A DNA stretch of 64,000 bases from Brachyspira innocens ATCC 29796 (GTDB lineage Bacteria > Spirochaetota > Brachyspiria > Brachyspirales > Brachyspiraceae), in assembly GCF_000384655.1 (NCBI RefSeq), contig NZ_ARQI01000125.1:1-64000 (forward strand). The letters are read 5' to 3'. The notes below the pieces were generated by a model. The model saw only the letters and a program-made list of their open reading frames with translations. It was not told the DNA's origin and ran no database searches. Made by a program: the position numbers and the translations under genes. Shown here piece by piece: positions 24,988 to 32,310 of the stretch; positions within the stretch are counted from its first letter, which is position 1, and every line of letters begins with the position of its first letter.

Positions 24988-26226
24988 TTATATAATTTCA
25001 CTTTCTATCATCTCATCAAAAGTTTGTCTTTTTCGTATAATGTAATGCTTATCTTTATCTGCCATAATCTGTGCTATAAGAGGTCTTGAATTATAATTGC
25101 TTGACATACTAAATCCATAAGCACCAGCATCAAGTAATGCAACATAATCTCCTTCTTCCACTACAGAGCACTCTCTGTCATAGGCAAAAAAGTCAGAACT
25201 TTCACATATAGGTCCTACAAAATCATAATTAGATACACTTTCTCTTTTTACTAAAGGATATATCTCATTATAAGCATCGTACATAGCTACCCTTACATAA
25301 TCGTTCATACCGCCGTCTAATATAACATACTTTCTTCCAAGTTCCTCTTTTACATATTCTACTCTCATTATCAAAGCACCAGATTCTGCTACAAAATATC
25401 TTCCAGGCTCGGTTGTTACTTTAAGATTCATTTCTTTTAATAGATTTATGCTTTCATTTTTAAACTTATCAAAATCAAAACCAGAATGATCTTTATTATA
25501 CCTTACCCCATAACCGCCTCCTATATCAATATCGGTTATATTAAATCCCATGCTATTAACTTCGCCTATCAAGTCTTTCATTACTAAAATGGCTCTGTAA
25601 AAAGGCTCAGCATCTGTCATTTGAGAACCTATATGCATTGATAAAGACTCTATCTCTATATTATCTAATGATTTTAAAAGATTAGCATTTTCTATTATAG
25701 TTTTAATACATACCCCAAATTTGTTTCCATTTACACCTGTAGTAATCTTTTCATGAGTATGTGCATCAACATTAGGATTAACTCTTATAGAACATTTTAC
25801 TCTCTTTTTAAGTTCTTTAGCTATATTATTAATTCTTACAGCTTCTGGAATAGATTCTATATTAAAACGTTTTATATTAAGCTCAATAGATTTTTTTATC
25901 TCTTCTTCTGTTTTTGCCACACCAGAAAATACTATATTACGGGCATTTCCTCCAGCTTTTATATATTTCAAAGTCTCACCTATAGAAACAACATCTGCCC
26001 CAATTCCTTCTTCTACCATCATTTTTAATATAGATAAATTATTCTCAGCCTTAACAGCATATGCTATTAATACATCGTCTAAAGATGAAAATATGTCTTT
26101 TAAAAATCTTATTTTTTGTAAAATGTCATTTTTTGAATAAAGATAAAAAGGACTTCCATAAACTTTTGTAAGTTCTCTTATATCAATATCTTCGCACATT
26201 AATATATTATTTTTATAGCCTATCAT
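24988..26226 (-). CDS. lysA: Diaminopimelate decarboxylase
   Basis: A 412-residue fold-type III PLP enzyme that decarboxylates meso-diaminopimelate to L-lysine. The PLP lysine is in IAYAVKAENNLS. The glycine-rich phosphate site is DIDIGGGYGVRY, the TEPGRYFVAESG segment contributes to substrate binding, and the C-terminal GPICESSDFFA supplies the catalytic Cys. Length is normal. It is the last gene of a minus-strand run that starts at 29418, with a 48-base gap from the deacetylase gene, and is closed by the 24928 terminator. Confidence 0.95.
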   Translation of the reverse strand: MIGYKNNILMCEDIDIRELTKVYGSPFYLYSKNDILQKIRFLKDIFSSLDDVLIAYAVKAENNLSILKMMVEEGIGADVVSIGETLKYIKAGGNARNIVFSGVAKTEEEIKKSIELNIKRFNIESIPEAVRINNIAKELKKRVKCSIRVNPNVDAHTHEKITTGVNGNKFGVCIKTIIENANLLKSLDNIEIESLSMHIGSQMTDAEPFYRAILVMKDLIGEVNSMGFNITDIDIGGGYGVRYNKDHSGFDFDKFKNESINLLKEMNLKVTTEPGRYFVAESGALIMRVEYVKEELGRKYVILDGGMNDYVRVAMYDAYNEIYPLVKRESVSNYDFVGPICESSDFFAYDRECSVVEEGDYVALLDAGAYGFSMSSNYNSRPLIAQIMADKDKHYIIRKRQTFDEMIESEII

Positions 26227-26274: not shown

Positions 26275-27183
26275 TTATTCAAGTTTTTTAGTTAAAACTT
26301 CTGTTATATTCACGCTTACTATATTATCTTCATAAAGAAGAGGTAAATTATTTTCCAAAACCTTTAATGTTTCCTCACTTTGATAATGCCCTATACCAAC
26401 AGCAATGCCATACTCTTTTGATAATTTAATTAGCTCTCTCCACTGCTTCATTATGCTGTCATAATCTCTATCATTATCCAAAAATACATTTCTCTTTGCC
26501 GTTCCTACATCATTTTCTAATGCCAAATCATATATCACACTTTCTGCAGAAGTATAAGAATCTACAAAATATTTATTATTATTTTTAGCATAGTCAATCA
26601 TATATGAAACTATATTAATATCCTTACAAGCAAGAGAGCCAGTATGATTATTCATTCCATTAGCATAAGGAACTTTTGAAAATGAATAATCTAGTAAATT
26701 AAAAACTTCATCTTTATTCATTCCAGTTCTTATTATAGTTTTCTCTCCGAAATAACCGCTGCCCTCCATAGGCATATGCAAAATAACATCAACATCATTA
26801 CTGTATGCCAAATAAGAAAAATCTATACTATGAGGAGAATCTGGAAGCACTGCAAATGTTATGCCGTATTCATAAGCTAATTGAAAATACCTATCTGTAT
26901 AATCAAGAGTATTTCCGCTGTCATCTATTATAATAGTTATAAAATTACTGCTTTCTATGGGTTTTATAATATTATCTAATATAGGTTCTGACATATTAGG
27001 AGAATTAATATCTGCTGAATAAAATACATCATTAGTTTTTTTTGATGTTATAGTTTTTTCAGATGTATAATTTTCATCTGCATATTCAAAACTAATTCCA
27101 TAATTTTCTTTAACCTTAATAAAGGTAAAAGCAAATACGATAATTATAATAAATAAAAATACAAAAATAATTATTCTTTTCAT
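26275..27183 (-). CDS. Divergent polysaccharide deacetylase family protein
   Basis: A 302-residue protein with one N-terminal membrane anchor or signal (about 4-24), then a linker and a catalytic-like domain from about residue 80. Family features (PF04748 type) are ITIIIDDSGN, ITFAVLPDSPHS, VILHMPMEGSGYFG, NNHTGSLACKD and GIGHYQSEETLKVLEN. It sits in the periplasm and probably acts on peptidoglycan or other glycans. Related genes often lie next to cell-wall hydrolase genes. Its neighbour here is lysA. Confidence 0.85.
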   Translation of the reverse strand: MKRIIIFVFLFIIIIVFAFTFIKVKENYGISFEYADENYTSEKTITSKKTNDVFYSADINSPNMSEPILDNIIKPIESSNFITIIIDDSGNTLDYTDRYFQLAYEYGITFAVLPDSPHSIDFSYLAYSNDVDVILHMPMEGSGYFGEKTIIRTGMNKDEVFNLLDYSFSKVPYANGMNNHTGSLACKDINIVSYMIDYAKNNNKYFVDSYTSAESVIYDLALENDVGTAKRNVFLDNDRDYDSIMKQWRELIKLSKEYGIAVGIGHYQSEETLKVLENNLPLLYEDNIVSVNITEVLTKKLE

Positions 27184-27254: not shown

Positions 27255-27539
27255 CTACTTTTCAATCATACTGTCAATGCTTACAACAGAATGTTCTTTG
27301 CATTTAGGACATTTAGGGTAAGTTATATTTTTTATAATTTTTGTAAAAAAGGAATCTTTTTTATTATCATCATCTGAATTGATTTTCGTTATTACATTTC
27401 CATTTTCATCAGTTTCATTATTTTCAAAATCTAATGTAATATCAGAAAAAATAGAAGGAGCATGCAAGTTTTTATCCGAGCTAAAATAATGTCCGCATTT
27501 TGTGCATTTATAAAAGAAAGGCGGTTTATCTCTAAACAT
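27255..27539 (-). CDS. Small protein with a split zinc ribbon
   Basis: A 94-residue protein. Two CxxC knuckles are separated by about 65 residues: YKCTKCGHYF near the N terminus and PKCPKCKEHSV near the C terminus. Together they could form one zinc ribbon with an acidic Asp/Asn-rich insert (DENGNVITKINSDDDNKK) looped out. No known family is recognised. It follows the metallophosphoesterase by 19 bases, so the three genes from 29418 down to 27255 look like one operon. Confidence 0.6.
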   Translation of the reverse strand: MFRDKPPFFYKCTKCGHYFSSDKNLHAPSIFSDITLDFENNETDENGNVITKINSDDDNKKDSFFTKIIKNITYPKCPKCKEHSVVSIDSMIEK

Positions 27540-27558: not shown

Positions 27559-28254
27559 CTATATATCTAATACCAATAATTTATTTTGTTCGCTGTCAAA
27601 ATGATCCGACATGTAAATAACAGCATTATCTTTTTTTATAATACTATACGGCTTTACCCTATTATGCCCTACTACCTGATTATACCCAACCCAAGAATCC
27701 GCAAGCAAATCCTCTGTATCAGCCCATAAAATACCTGCAAATTTACTTAATCCTCCTCGTCTGAAGGATGCTATATTACAGTCATCTTTATCATTCTTAT
27801 ATACTATATTTACTACGCTTTCAATATTATCAATATCTATATTATCTATATTATATTTATTTTTTATATAATCAATCCAGCCATTTGTTATTCCAGCATG
27901 CGTAAATATATAATTATTTTCTATATGTATAGGCTTAAATATATTGACATTGCTATTAAATATCTCATTCATTTCTCTTGCATAGCTTTCTCTATATCTG
28001 CTTGCTGTAGGATATCCCACTATATACTGAAAATCATGATTGCCTATAAGAAGCTCAACATTATCATTATGATTTTTTTTAAACTCTATCACATCTTTAA
28101 GATTATTAATTATATCTTCATCATTAAAGCGTACCCAACTGTCATCACTGTAATCTCCCATAAATATTATTTTATCAAATTCAGAAAATCTTCCTTCAAG
28201 TAATTTCTTCCAGCAGTCTTTTCCATGCAAATCACCTATAACAGCTATTTTCAT
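27559..28254 (-). CDS. Calcineurin-like metallophosphoesterase
   Basis: A 231-residue protein with the metal-binding blocks of the family in order: GDLHGK (Asp, His), MGDYSDD (bridging Asp), LIGNHDF (Asn, His), FTHAGIT (His) and GHNR (His). It resembles the Ser/Thr protein phosphatase/ApaH branch in length and block spacing. Substrates could be phosphoprotein or dinucleotides. It starts three bases after the stop of the HPr-like fusion gene. That invites the idea that it dephosphorylates that protein, which is speculation based on linkage only. Confidence 0.85.
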   Translation of the reverse strand: MKIAVIGDLHGKDCWKKLLEGRFSEFDKIIFMGDYSDDSWVRFNDEDIINNLKDVIEFKKNHNDNVELLIGNHDFQYIVGYPTASRYRESYAREMNEIFNSNVNIFKPIHIENNYIFTHAGITNGWIDYIKNKYNIDNIDIDNIESVVNIVYKNDKDDCNIASFRRGGLSKFAGILWADTEDLLADSWVGYNQVVGHNRVKPYSIIKKDNAVIYMSDHFDSEQNKLLVLDI

Positions 28255-28257
28255 TTT

Positions 28258-29418
28258 TTAAATCCTCCTTGCAAGTCTTAATATATTATGATAATCTATA
28301 TCTAAATTACTTGTATCTTTTTCTAATACTTTAGCAGTATAAATATTTTCAAATTCTTTTTGTAAAATATCCTTAAACTCTTTTATATTATCACTATACT
28401 CATCTATATTAGATTTATTATTAATGGAAGGTTCATAATCAGATTTTATCCTATCGATTATATTATCTATAACACTATTTTTTATGTCATAAATCTTTCC
28501 TATAGTCTGTACTATATTTATTACTCTATACTTATTAGTGTTTGAATTAATATCGTCCATCATGTAAATATTAATAGAATAATCTGCTGATTTTCTTTTA
28601 TCTTCAAGAACATAATCTAAATTTTTTATTGCTTCTTCAACAAAATTATTAATTATAACAGTATCATATTCTTCATGCAAATCTTCTATACCTATTAGTT
28701 TTTCTATAAATAATTTATCAAACTGATAGGTTAAATATTTTTTTATGTCATTAAAAAACATATATATATAAAAAAATTTCATATCTTTTCCTTTTATTAC
28801 ACTTATTAGATATGAAATAAAATCCTTCGTTCTGCTTTCTTTTATAGGTATTTCATAATGTGATGATAAATATTTTATTACATCGTATATATTATTATTG
28901 ATAACATCAACAATTTTTGTTTTATCGTTATCCTTAATATACAGAATATTATTATCCAAATTCAGACTTTCTAAATGAATAGAATCTCTTTTTTCTTTTA
29001 AGAGTCTTACTTTATTTTCTATATCATTTTTTACAATTTCCTTTTTGTCTTCAGGTGTTAAAGATAATATTTCTTTTTCTATATATTTATTATGCTCATC
29101 TTCTTTTTCTTTTTCTAATTCTTGTATTTTTTCTAAAGTATAGAACTCTTTTTTATCAAGTATATCCTCTATTCTTTTGATGTTATTTTCTTTATCATCA
29201 CCATAAACATACAATTTAAATCTGAATCCGTATTTTACATCAAGCCCCATCATTTTTATAAAAGATTTGGCATTAACTCTCTTTCCATCTTGATTTTCTA
29301 TTTCAATTTTATCATCTATAGTCCTAAAAAAATCAACGATAGAATTAACAATTTTATTATCAGATGCCAAACTATTTCGGCATTCAAATTCTTTAGATAT
29401 AAAATCTTCCATAAACAC
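28258..29418 (-). CDS. HPr/Crh-like domain fused to a helical region
   Basis: A 386-residue cytosolic protein. Residues about 8-90 match the HPr fold: IEIENQDGKRVNAKSFIKMM, then GLDVKYGFRFKLYVYG and a last helix KENNIKRIEDIL. Ser52 in NAKS aligns with HPr Ser46, the HPr-kinase target, while no histidine occurs anywhere in this domain, so phosphotransfer through His15 is impossible. That combination is what defines Crh. A charged coiled coil (about 90-155, Glu/Lys-rich) and a mostly helical C-terminal half of unknown family follow. It heads an operon with the metallophosphoesterase and zinc-ribbon genes. The domain assignment is by eye. Confidence 0.6.
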   Translation of the reverse strand: MFMEDFISKEFECRNSLASDNKIVNSIVDFFRTIDDKIEIENQDGKRVNAKSFIKMMGLDVKYGFRFKLYVYGDDKENNIKRIEDILDKKEFYTLEKIQELEKEKEDEHNKYIEKEILSLTPEDKKEIVKNDIENKVRLLKEKRDSIHLESLNLDNNILYIKDNDKTKIVDVINNNIYDVIKYLSSHYEIPIKESRTKDFISYLISVIKGKDMKFFYIYMFFNDIKKYLTYQFDKLFIEKLIGIEDLHEEYDTVIINNFVEEAIKNLDYVLEDKRKSADYSINIYMMDDINSNTNKYRVINIVQTIGKIYDIKNSVIDNIIDRIKSDYEPSINNKSNIDEYSDNIKEFKDILQKEFENIYTAKVLEKDTSNLDIDYHNILRLARRI

Positions 29419-29510
29419 AAGCCTTAATAAGATATTTTCTATAAAATAACATTAATTTATTAAAATTTCAATAACTTTTTGTATAAATAAGATAAATAAA
29501 TTAAATAATA

Positions 29511-29589: not shown

Positions 29590-30750
29590 TTATTTAGCCA
29601 TAATTGTACCAACATACATTTTATCTGTTCTAATTCCTGGTTTAATTTCACCATTAATAGAATATATTTTATTTCCTATTAATATCAAACCTTCACCGCA
29701 AGGAGCATCAAAAGGAATCTCACCTATTGTTTTCCAAGTATTAGAATCAGAGTTATAAATCAATATATTACTGTTCCAATTAAATTCATAAGGATCAGCT
29801 CCGAAGTATCCAGCTCTGAAATTAGCTAATTCAGTACCTTGAAGATTACCTAAATTATAAACAGCATTATCATAAATAGCTTTATTAAATCCGCCTATAA
29901 CAAGCATTTCACTTTCATTAAGTTTAACGGATACAGCACCAAGCAAAGATATTCCTTCTCCATTAAGAGCTACTTCAGCAACAGGAGTCCAAGTATTATT
30001 AGCAAAATCATATTTATATCCGTCAGTATAAGCTATTGCATCGCCGCCGCTGAATACATATATATTGCCGTTTAGTAATTGAGCAACTGCCTGAGTTCTG
30101 CTTTCCTTACCAGGTACTGGAGCCAATTCTTTAGCTTCTTTAGTTGTCAAATCATATTCATAAAGTTTATTGCTGCCTTTGCCTGCTTGTTTGCCAGTAA
30201 TTATATATAATTTATTATCTTTATAAACAGCAACTCCATTTTGTAAAGTGAAAGGCAAATCACCTATTTTTTCAACATTTAATTTATTATCTTTTAATGT
30301 AATAAATAATATATCATCATCAGCTTCTGGGTTTGAAGAGCCTCCTATATAATATATACCATCAGCAGTAGTTATAGAAGAACCATATCCCAATTCATTT
30401 TCCCAATTAATATGCTCAACTACTTCTAATACACCATTTTTATCTTCAAGCATGTATATATCAGAATAAGTTTTTTTAGCTCCTCCGTTTAATACAGATT
30501 CTTCAGGGAAATTAGCTCCTCCGCCTACAACTATATATTTATCTCTTAAAGAACCATATAAAACTCCAGCTGTACCTATATTTTTGTCCATTCCTGTTTG
30601 AGCAGGTAAATGTCCTCCCATTTCCCAAACTATTTTTTTATCAGTTTTTGAATCTAGTACATTAGTATTATTATTAGCTGTATTAGTTCCAGAACAGCTA
30701 ATAACAGATATTGTAAATATAATAGATAAAATTAAACATATTTTTTTCAT
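29590..30750 (-). CDS. Kelch-type sialic acid mutarotase (NanM-like) lipoprotein
   Basis: A 386-residue lipoprotein (lipobox ISVISC, Cys about 20) with a six-bladed Kelch propeller. Typical blade starts are DKYIVVGGGANFPE, DGIYYIGGSSNPE, NKLYIITGKQAG, GNIYVFSGGDA and SEMLVIGGFNKA. It resembles the cyclically permuted mutarotase/NanM family, which converts alpha-N-acetylneuraminate released by sialidases to the beta anomer in the periplasm. It lies 27 bases after the Na+ symporter gene, supporting a joint role in sialic acid use. The catabolic genes nanA, nanE and nanK are not in the window. Confidence 0.8.
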   Translation of the reverse strand: MKKICLILSIIFTISVISCSGTNTANNNTNVLDSKTDKKIVWEMGGHLPAQTGMDKNIGTAGVLYGSLRDKYIVVGGGANFPEESVLNGGAKKTYSDIYMLEDKNGVLEVVEHINWENELGYGSSITTADGIYYIGGSSNPEADDDILFITLKDNKLNVEKIGDLPFTLQNGVAVYKDNKLYIITGKQAGKGSNKLYEYDLTTKEAKELAPVPGKESRTQAVAQLLNGNIYVFSGGDAIAYTDGYKYDFANNTWTPVAEVALNGEGISLLGAVSVKLNESEMLVIGGFNKAIYDNAVYNLGNLQGTELANFRAGYFGADPYEFNWNSNILIYNSDSNTWKTIGEIPFDAPCGEGLILIGNKIYSINGEIKPGIRTDKMYVGTIMAK

Positions 30751-30777
30751 ATTTTATTCCTTAATTATACACTGCCC

Positions 30778-32310
30778 TTATTTATGATTTTTTATAGTAG
30801 TAGAATAAGTTAATCCTTTTATTTTTTCTTCAGATGGTTTTCCGAAAGCAAAAGAAGCTAAGAAAGAACCTATTACACCAACACCTATGATTATAAATGA
30901 AATCATGAACTCAAAGATTTTTGGTTTAGCATATCCAGGTATAAATTTAGTAAGCATTCCAGCAGGATCGCTTATATAGAATGCTACTATAACAGAAAGT
31001 ATAAATCCTACCCAAACAGCTTTAGTTTCTACTTTATCGAAGAATATACCTACCAAGAATACAGCAGCTATAGGACCGCCTAAAAGACCTGTTATAGCTT
31101 GGAAGTATAAGAACATATCTCCCTGACCATTATATATAAAGTATATTGCAAGTATAGTACTGACTATACCTACTATCCAGCTTGATAATCTTGCAAATTT
31201 TAATTTAGAAGCATCTTCCATACCAGGTTTTAAAAACTCTAATATATCAGCTGTCATACAAGTAGAAACAGAGTTAAGGCTTGAAGATACTGTAGACTGA
31301 GCAGCAGCAAATATAGCAGCTATTACAAGTCCTGATATACCAACAGGTAAAGCATTTACTACGAAATAAGGAAGTATGGCATTTCCATTAACACTTTCTG
31401 GTAATGGAGTTTTGAAATGGAAATAAATATATAAAGCAGAACCCATACCTATAAATATTACAATACTAGTACAAAGCAAAGGAATATTCATATATAAACT
31501 TTTTTTAGCTTCATGTTCGTCTTTGTTTGTAGCATATCTTTGAACTATGTCTTGGCTTCCTACATATGAATATATTGAATTAAAAAAACCGCCTATTATC
31601 ATAACCCATATACTGGATTTAGCTAAATCTAAAGAGAAAAAGTCGGGGCTTATGATTTTTCCATCATCTGCTAATAATTGAAAACCTTGACCTATTCCTT
31701 CAGGAGCAGATGCAAAACCTACTATGATGATAAGGAAAGCTCCCAAAAGAAGTACTACTGTTTGTATAGCATCAGACCATAATACAGCTTCTATACCACC
31801 CATAGAAGTATAAGCAACACAGAATATGGATACAATAACTGTTATCAATACTGGATTAAGAGCAGGAAGTACTTGCTGTATAGCCAAAGTAGGAAGATAA
31901 ATTACTATAGCCATTCTTACAACGTGAAAAAGTATAAATGTTAAACTTCCAACTAGTCTGAAAGAGTTATTAAATCTTTTTCCTAAATATTCATAAGCAG
32001 TAGTAACATTAACTCTTCTAAAGAATGGTACAAATGTAGGAGCCACCCATAATACTATTAAAATAATACCTAAAGGAGCCATACCCAAAAGCCAGCTGTT
32101 ATTATAAACAGAAGCTGGTATAGCAATAAATGAAATAGATGATAAAGATGTAGCATAAATACTCATAGCTGTTACCAAAGCTGGAACCCTTCCGCCTGCT
32201 TTAAAATAATCATCTGTTGATTTTGTTCTTTTAGCAAAGAACATACCGATTAAAAACATTACAACAAAGTATAGTCCGATGACTACCCAGTCAAACCAAT
32301 GCCAAGCCAT
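30778..32310 (-). CDS. Sodium:solute symporter (SSS family), sialic acid type likely
   Basis: A 510-residue membrane protein with about 13 helices and the SSS core. It includes the early loop RTKSTDDYFKAGGRVPALVT, SIYATSLSSISFIAIPA in TM2, and the Na+-site helix AAIFAAAQSTVSSSLNSVST. The family couples uptake of sugars or acids to sodium entry. Linkage to a NanM-like gene suggests N-acetylneuraminate as substrate (SiaT/NanT-like); galactose-type sugars are an alternative. It is first in the operon. A perfect 16-bp palindrome lies 27 bases before the start codon. AGGAGA is visible before the ATG. Confidence 0.85.
   Translation of the reverse strand: MAWHWFDWVVIGLYFVVMFLIGMFFAKRTKSTDDYFKAGGRVPALVTAMSIYATSLSSISFIAIPASVYNNSWLLGMAPLGIILIVLWVAPTFVPFFRRVNVTTAYEYLGKRFNNSFRLVGSLTFILFHVVRMAIVIYLPTLAIQQVLPALNPVLITVIVSIFCVAYTSMGGIEAVLWSDAIQTVVLLLGAFLIIIVGFASAPEGIGQGFQLLADDGKIISPDFFSLDLAKSSIWVMIIGGFFNSIYSYVGSQDIVQRYATNKDEHEAKKSLYMNIPLLCTSIVIFIGMGSALYIYFHFKTPLPESVNGNAILPYFVVNALPVGISGLVIAAIFAAAQSTVSSSLNSVSTCMTADILEFLKPGMEDASKLKFARLSSWIVGIVSTILAIYFIYNGQGDMFLYFQAITGLLGGPIAAVFLVGIFFDKVETKAVWVGFILSVIVAFYISDPAGMLTKFIPGYAKPKIFEFMISFIIIGVGVIGSFLASFAFGKPSEEKIKGLTYSTTIKNHK

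Follow-up and report, generated by a model that had tools for sequence, protein, structure and literature searches.

What does an HPr domain do once its catalytic histidine has been lost and a long helical region has been attached to it? The question is raised by a minus-strand gene of the window, that is, the whole stretch of 64,000 nucleotides of Brachyspira DNA that was analysed. The open reading frame 28258-29418 described there by a sequence-only reading does exist on the minus strand, and its start is better placed at the ATG at 29412, because this codon is aligned in all orthologues and is preceded by AAGG. We named the product HPrF and numbered its residues from this ATG, so that the serine previously called Ser52 (numbered from a GTG) becomes S50. 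The gene is organised as follows:

28258..29412, minus strand: HPrF gene, 384 aa from the ATG; the alternative GTG at 29418 would give 386 aa
29143..29412, minus strand: HPr-fold domain, residues 1-90, recognised by Pfam profile, AlphaFold2 and Foldseek
28978..29142, minus strand: charged helical linker, residues 91-145, with predicted helices at 93-117, 121-129 and 131-143
28258..28977, minus strand: all-helical C-terminal domain of no known family, residues 146-384 plus the stop codon

Whole-gene dN/dS values of 0.10-0.23 between close species pairs indicate a real, constrained protein under purifying selection, and the HPr part gave values of 0.04-0.25 between close species. The protein is functional, and its HPr domain is genuine. 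The Pfam profile PF00381 matched residues 8-87 with 36.7 bits (E=4.3e-9; the cut-off is 23 bits), and residues 1-90 matched known HPr structures at the sequence level with E-values down to 1e-5. An AlphaFold2 model built from 20 relatives (mean pLDDT 88) showed the order beta-alpha-beta-beta-alpha-beta-alpha in this domain, arranged as the open-faced beta-sandwich of the HPr family. When the model was compared with the PDB by Foldseek, the top folds were HPr (probability 1.00) and Crh, with TM-scores of 0.87 to 1kkl (HPr in complex with HprK) and 0.84 to 1zvv (Crh). The HPr fold that had been proposed for the N-terminal residues is therefore upheld by profile, model and structural comparison alike, and the serine on which the proposal also depended is conserved, as described below.

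The model also bore out the helical C-terminus, which, with a total length of 384 aa, is found in every intact HPrF orthologue. This part of the protein matched no family in searches of Pfam, NCBIfam, PHROGs, PADLOC, PDB sequences, PDB folds and viral folds. The helical region (about 290 aa) had no convincing relative outside the genus among 393 genomes of the phylum (best E 0.002), a scan of GTDB contigs returned HPrF relatives in Brachyspira only, and viral contigs yielded none. Neither a IIA nor an enzyme I domain was found in residues 91-384. The view that a fusion of HPr to such a long helical part is unusual is supported by these searches.

Three residues of the HPr domain bear on its function:

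29359..29361, minus strand: D18, at the position of the catalytic His15
29353..29355, minus strand: K20, at the position of Arg17
29263..29265, minus strand: S50, at the position of the regulatory Ser46

D18 and K20 were placed by an ungapped alignment to canonical HPr, and both are invariant in the main-copy HPrF orthologues (17/17, paralogues left out), while positions 14, 15, 16, 17, 19 and 21 of the same loop vary, with 3-6 different residues each. In the AlphaFold2 model the first helix begins at residue 19, just as helix A of HPr begins directly behind His15, an agreement that supports the register D18 = His15. HPrF thus has D18 and K20 where an HPr phosphocarrier has His15 and Arg17. 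As had been noticed from the sequence, the protein of the window contains no histidine in residues 1-90 and the catalytic one is lost; a few relatives have a single histidine in the HPr domain, none of them at the His15 position. The further claim that the domain cannot relay PTS phosphate goes beyond the evidence, since engineered H15D HPr both accepts and donates phosphate, according to the title of Napper 1999 as cited in PMC6763467, and loss of the histidine alone is thus no proof that HPrF refuses phosphate from enzyme I. Nor is the label "Crh-like" appropriate, as position 15 is an invariant aspartate, position 17 an invariant lysine, and the nearest relative is the HPr of the genus and not Crh.

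The regulatory serine has been kept, as the earlier reading held: none of the 20 aligned proteins, three paralogues among them, departs from S50 or from the NAKS motif around it. The organism has enzymes that could act on such a domain, with HprK encoded in 25/26 Brachyspira genomes and in that of the window, in which HprK clusters with a PtsN-like protein and which also carries an HPr-enzyme I operon. Conservation of S50 alone is nevertheless weak evidence for control by HprK, given that E. coli HPr has Ser46 (1opd) and the search for HprK gives no E. coli match; for the same reason, conservation does not tell phosphorylation from a structural role at this position. Indeed, S50 and D18 both lie at helix N-termini and could be purely structural, and in the model D18 could be simply a helix N-cap. 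HPrF looks like a phosphocarrier turned regulatory switch. A stand-alone HPr paralogue encoded elsewhere (L059:5125-5412; G000:C126), next to a BglG-type regulator and PTS genes, is its mirror image, with His15 kept and lysine in place of Ser46.

HPrF was found in 18/26 Brachyspira genomes and was absent elsewhere among the 393 genomes of the phylum and the GTDB contigs, where the matches include B. hampsonii, B. alvinipulli and Brachyspira sp. G79. In the last of these, HPrF and an associated GTPase gene (see below) appear disrupted, and this is due to an assembly gap of Ns and not to mutation. In a midpoint-rooted rpoA tree, from which two HPrF-positive genomes without rpoA are missing, the HPrF-positive species form one fully supported clade, suggesting a single gain, and no sampled member of this clade lacks HPrF. 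The HPr domain groups in its own tree with canonical Brachyspira HPr, to which it is about 42% identical over 66 aa, so that duplication of the genus's own HPr and fusion within Brachyspira would be the simplest origin. Three genomes hold a second copy just upstream of the first, about 37% identical to it:

L046:6903-8039, L043:8110-9246 and L044:7991-9127: tandem HPrF paralogues

In each of these paralogues the active-site loop has lost 4 residues and the Asp/Lys pair is not conserved; the NAKS serine is kept.

The reading that we prefer, with a probability of about 0.38, is that HPrF acts as a receiver that monitors PTS state and carbon supply and signals through its helical domain to a partner. 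HPrF would have arisen once in Brachyspira, when a copy of its own HPr was fused to a lineage-specific helical domain, and the HPr part would have been converted from phosphocarrier to receiver by the replacement of His15 with Asp and of Arg17 with Lys, with Ser46 kept. Sensing would most likely depend on HprK of the same organism phosphorylating S50, and enzyme I may in addition place a short-lived acyl phosphate on D18; the helical domain would then pass the state on to another protein, for which a dynamin-like membrane GTPase is the most probable candidate. Within this scheme we infer the phosphorylation, the direction of signalling and the physical interaction with a GTPase.

Alternatively, the HPr domain may be only a docking or decoy module, in which D18 and S50 imitate or stabilise a single unchanging state and HPr partners such as HprK, enzyme I or regulators are bound without any phosphorylation. 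This is the main alternative and, in our view, only a little less probable than the receiver. It would account for the helix that starts at residue 19, with D18 as its N-cap, for the N or D that the paralogues retain at the D18 position despite their shortened loop, and for the persistence of Ser46 in HPrs without HprK. Moreover, H15D HPr has been called phosphomimetic, yet its serine can be phosphorylated in vitro (PMC3526391). What argues against a docking module is that K20 and the whole NAKS motif are invariant too, neither of which is required by a mere N-cap, and that HprK and enzyme I are both present and could act on HPrF.

Downstream of HPrF lies a cluster of four genes:

27559..28254, minus strand: metallophosphoesterase (PF00149) with the five metal-site motifs GDLHG, GDYSDD, GNHD, THAG and GHNR
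27255..27539, minus strand: zinc-ribbon-like protein of 94 aa with a split CxxC...CxxC motif
26275..27183, minus strand: divergent polysaccharide deacetylase (PF04748), following the CxxC protein in the conserved cluster
24988..26226, minus strand: LysA-like protein that closes the conserved cluster, read from its sequence as a probable diaminopimelate decarboxylase

Practically all orthologous loci show this succession of genes, from HPrF through the metallophosphoesterase, the CxxC protein and the polysaccharide deacetylase to the LysA-like enzyme. The metallophosphoesterase begins 3 bases downstream of HPrF and is followed by the split zinc-ribbon gene, both as first described; the CxxC protein is found in the 18 HPrF-bearing genomes, with a partial match also in G006. 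It had been proposed that the metallophosphoesterase is the matching phosphatase, which would strip from S50 the phosphate added by HprK. Across the 13 measured orthologous loci the two genes abut or overlap, with spacings from -1 to 14 bases, the enzyme retains all five metal-site motifs, and its sole PDB sequence match, a weak one, is to a Ser/Thr phosphatase (E=0.034). However, it is encoded in 25/26 genomes against 18/26 for HPrF, which is not the distribution of a dedicated P-Ser-HPr phosphatase, and seven of the 25 lack the fusion and carry the enzyme mostly at other loci with all motifs kept. The metallophosphoesterase is thus not dedicated to HPrF. Since, in addition, HprK enzymes are often themselves bifunctional, a kinase-target/phosphatase pair is improbable.

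On the other side of HPrF, the divergent gene upstream encodes, in most HPrF-bearing genomes, an XRE helix-turn-helix fused to a GTPase (HTH-GTPase). It is present in exactly the same 18/26 genomes as HPrF and is kept even where it is unlinked to HPrF (G000, G017 and G024); in the window's own lineage it lies elsewhere in the genome. Because the HPrF-positive genomes form one clade, this co-distribution may reflect one gain followed by retention and not repeated co-gain. The fold is dynamin-like by Foldseek (BDLP 1.1e-5, IniA 8e-5), in a model of moderate confidence (pLDDT 73) that shows the GTPase domain and helical trunk of bacterial dynamin-like proteins; the P-loop reads GRYSSGKTS. No profile similarity was detected between the HTH-GTPase and the C-terminal domain of HPrF, and no shared operator was found in the promoters of the two genes. 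GTPase genes recur at the locus in other forms. Two further ones lie directly upstream of HPrF in G022, a 100-bp remnant of one lies upstream of HPrF in G011 (alignment score 163, shuffled maximum 42), and the corresponding locus of G021, a genome without HPrF, has two GTPases beside the metallophosphoesterase. The window may hold a trace of the same kind:

29435..29480, minus strand: possible weak relic of the 3' end of a GTPase gene, upstream of HPrF (score 50, shuffled maximum 48)

This segment aligns at the same query position as the clear relic of G011 and is suggestive only. Taken together, gene content and gene order point to the dynamin-like GTPases as better-linked partner candidates for HPrF than the metallophosphoesterase.

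Several features of these loci were observed in passing. In the HTH-GTPase G000:C107:13580-15160 (L092:8584-10161), the N-terminal HTH of about 67 residues is almost invariant in 15 species, across which the remainder is about 75% identical, and the promoter contains a repeated TACAT element that may be autoregulatory. A second cluster of GTPase genes, akin to a 503-aa GTPase, occurs at G022:C3:100576-105773. At 29590-32310 of the window, upstream of HPrF, a kelch-type NanM-like protein and a sodium-solute symporter, a pair that by its sequence could serve sialic acid uptake, replace the HTH-GTPase; they do so only in the G000/G017/G024 lineage.

More improbable still is a role of HPrF in a rapidly changing defence or membrane-stress module of dynamin-like type, in which its HPr part would sense an attack on metabolism and not tune sugar use: the linked GTPases give weak LeoA/LeoBC profile matches, GTPase genes have been gained, lost and left as relics at a locus where HPrF itself was duplicated in 3 genomes, and in B. 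subtilis a dynamin-like protein gives protection against phage (PMC8844932), but HPrF has neither a defence-model match nor a viral relative and, unlike typical defence genes, has been retained throughout its clade. As for the receiver reading, its most explicit version, a natural aspartate-phosphorylated HPr in which D18 would receive a short-lived acyl phosphate from enzyme I and S50 a phosphate from HprK, and in which this domain, readable in two ways, would set the activity of the dynamin-like GTPase and so connect carbon status with membrane remodelling, is the least probable of all the schemes considered here.

HPr relatives without the histidine are the clearest cases of a metabolic phosphocarrier turned pure regulator. 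Crh is, to our knowledge, the only well-studied one, and HPrF would add an independent one from a gut spirochaete, with an output domain attached, so that what a non-carrier HPr controls becomes directly testable. If the link to the GTPases is true, PTS/carbon signalling would be tied to membrane remodelling. The literature searched, which takes in only a minority of subscription journals, yielded no natural, conserved H15D HPr joined to a helical domain from outside the PTS.

With canonical HPr (ptsH, PF00381), HPrF has in common the fold and Ser46 with its flanking motif; it differs in having Asp for His15, Lys for Arg17, no Pro18 and some 290 extra residues. Crh, the catabolite repression HPr of Bacillus, which HprK phosphorylates and which serves CcpA as a corepressor, likewise combines the HPr fold with a retained Ser46 and no active-site histidine, but it is free-standing, with Gln at position 15, whereas HPrF has the invariant Asp and Lys and a helical C-terminal domain in a protein of 384 aa. 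The multiphosphoryl transfer proteins FruB/FPr and DhaM resemble HPrF in carrying HPr within a larger polypeptide, but they keep the histidine and, like the HPr fusions known from the literature, combine HPr with PTS domains (IIA, enzyme I; PMC2405797) and not to a non-PTS helical domain. Brachyspira has a known fusion of this type, a DhaM-type IIA-HPr-enzyme I protein with its histidine kept, in a dhaKLM operon (L060:4624-6069; G000:C97). The linked HTH-GTPase shares a GTPase and a long helical bundle with BDLP, IniA and LeoA/B/C, to which it adds the N-terminal helix-turn-helix that is almost invariant across species. Finally, engineered His15Asp HPr (PDB 1cm2, 1cm3, 3ccd) has an aspartate at the phosphorylation site, as HPrF does; in HPrF, a replacement of the kind so far studied in laboratory mutants is natural, is accompanied by R17K and is conserved across species.
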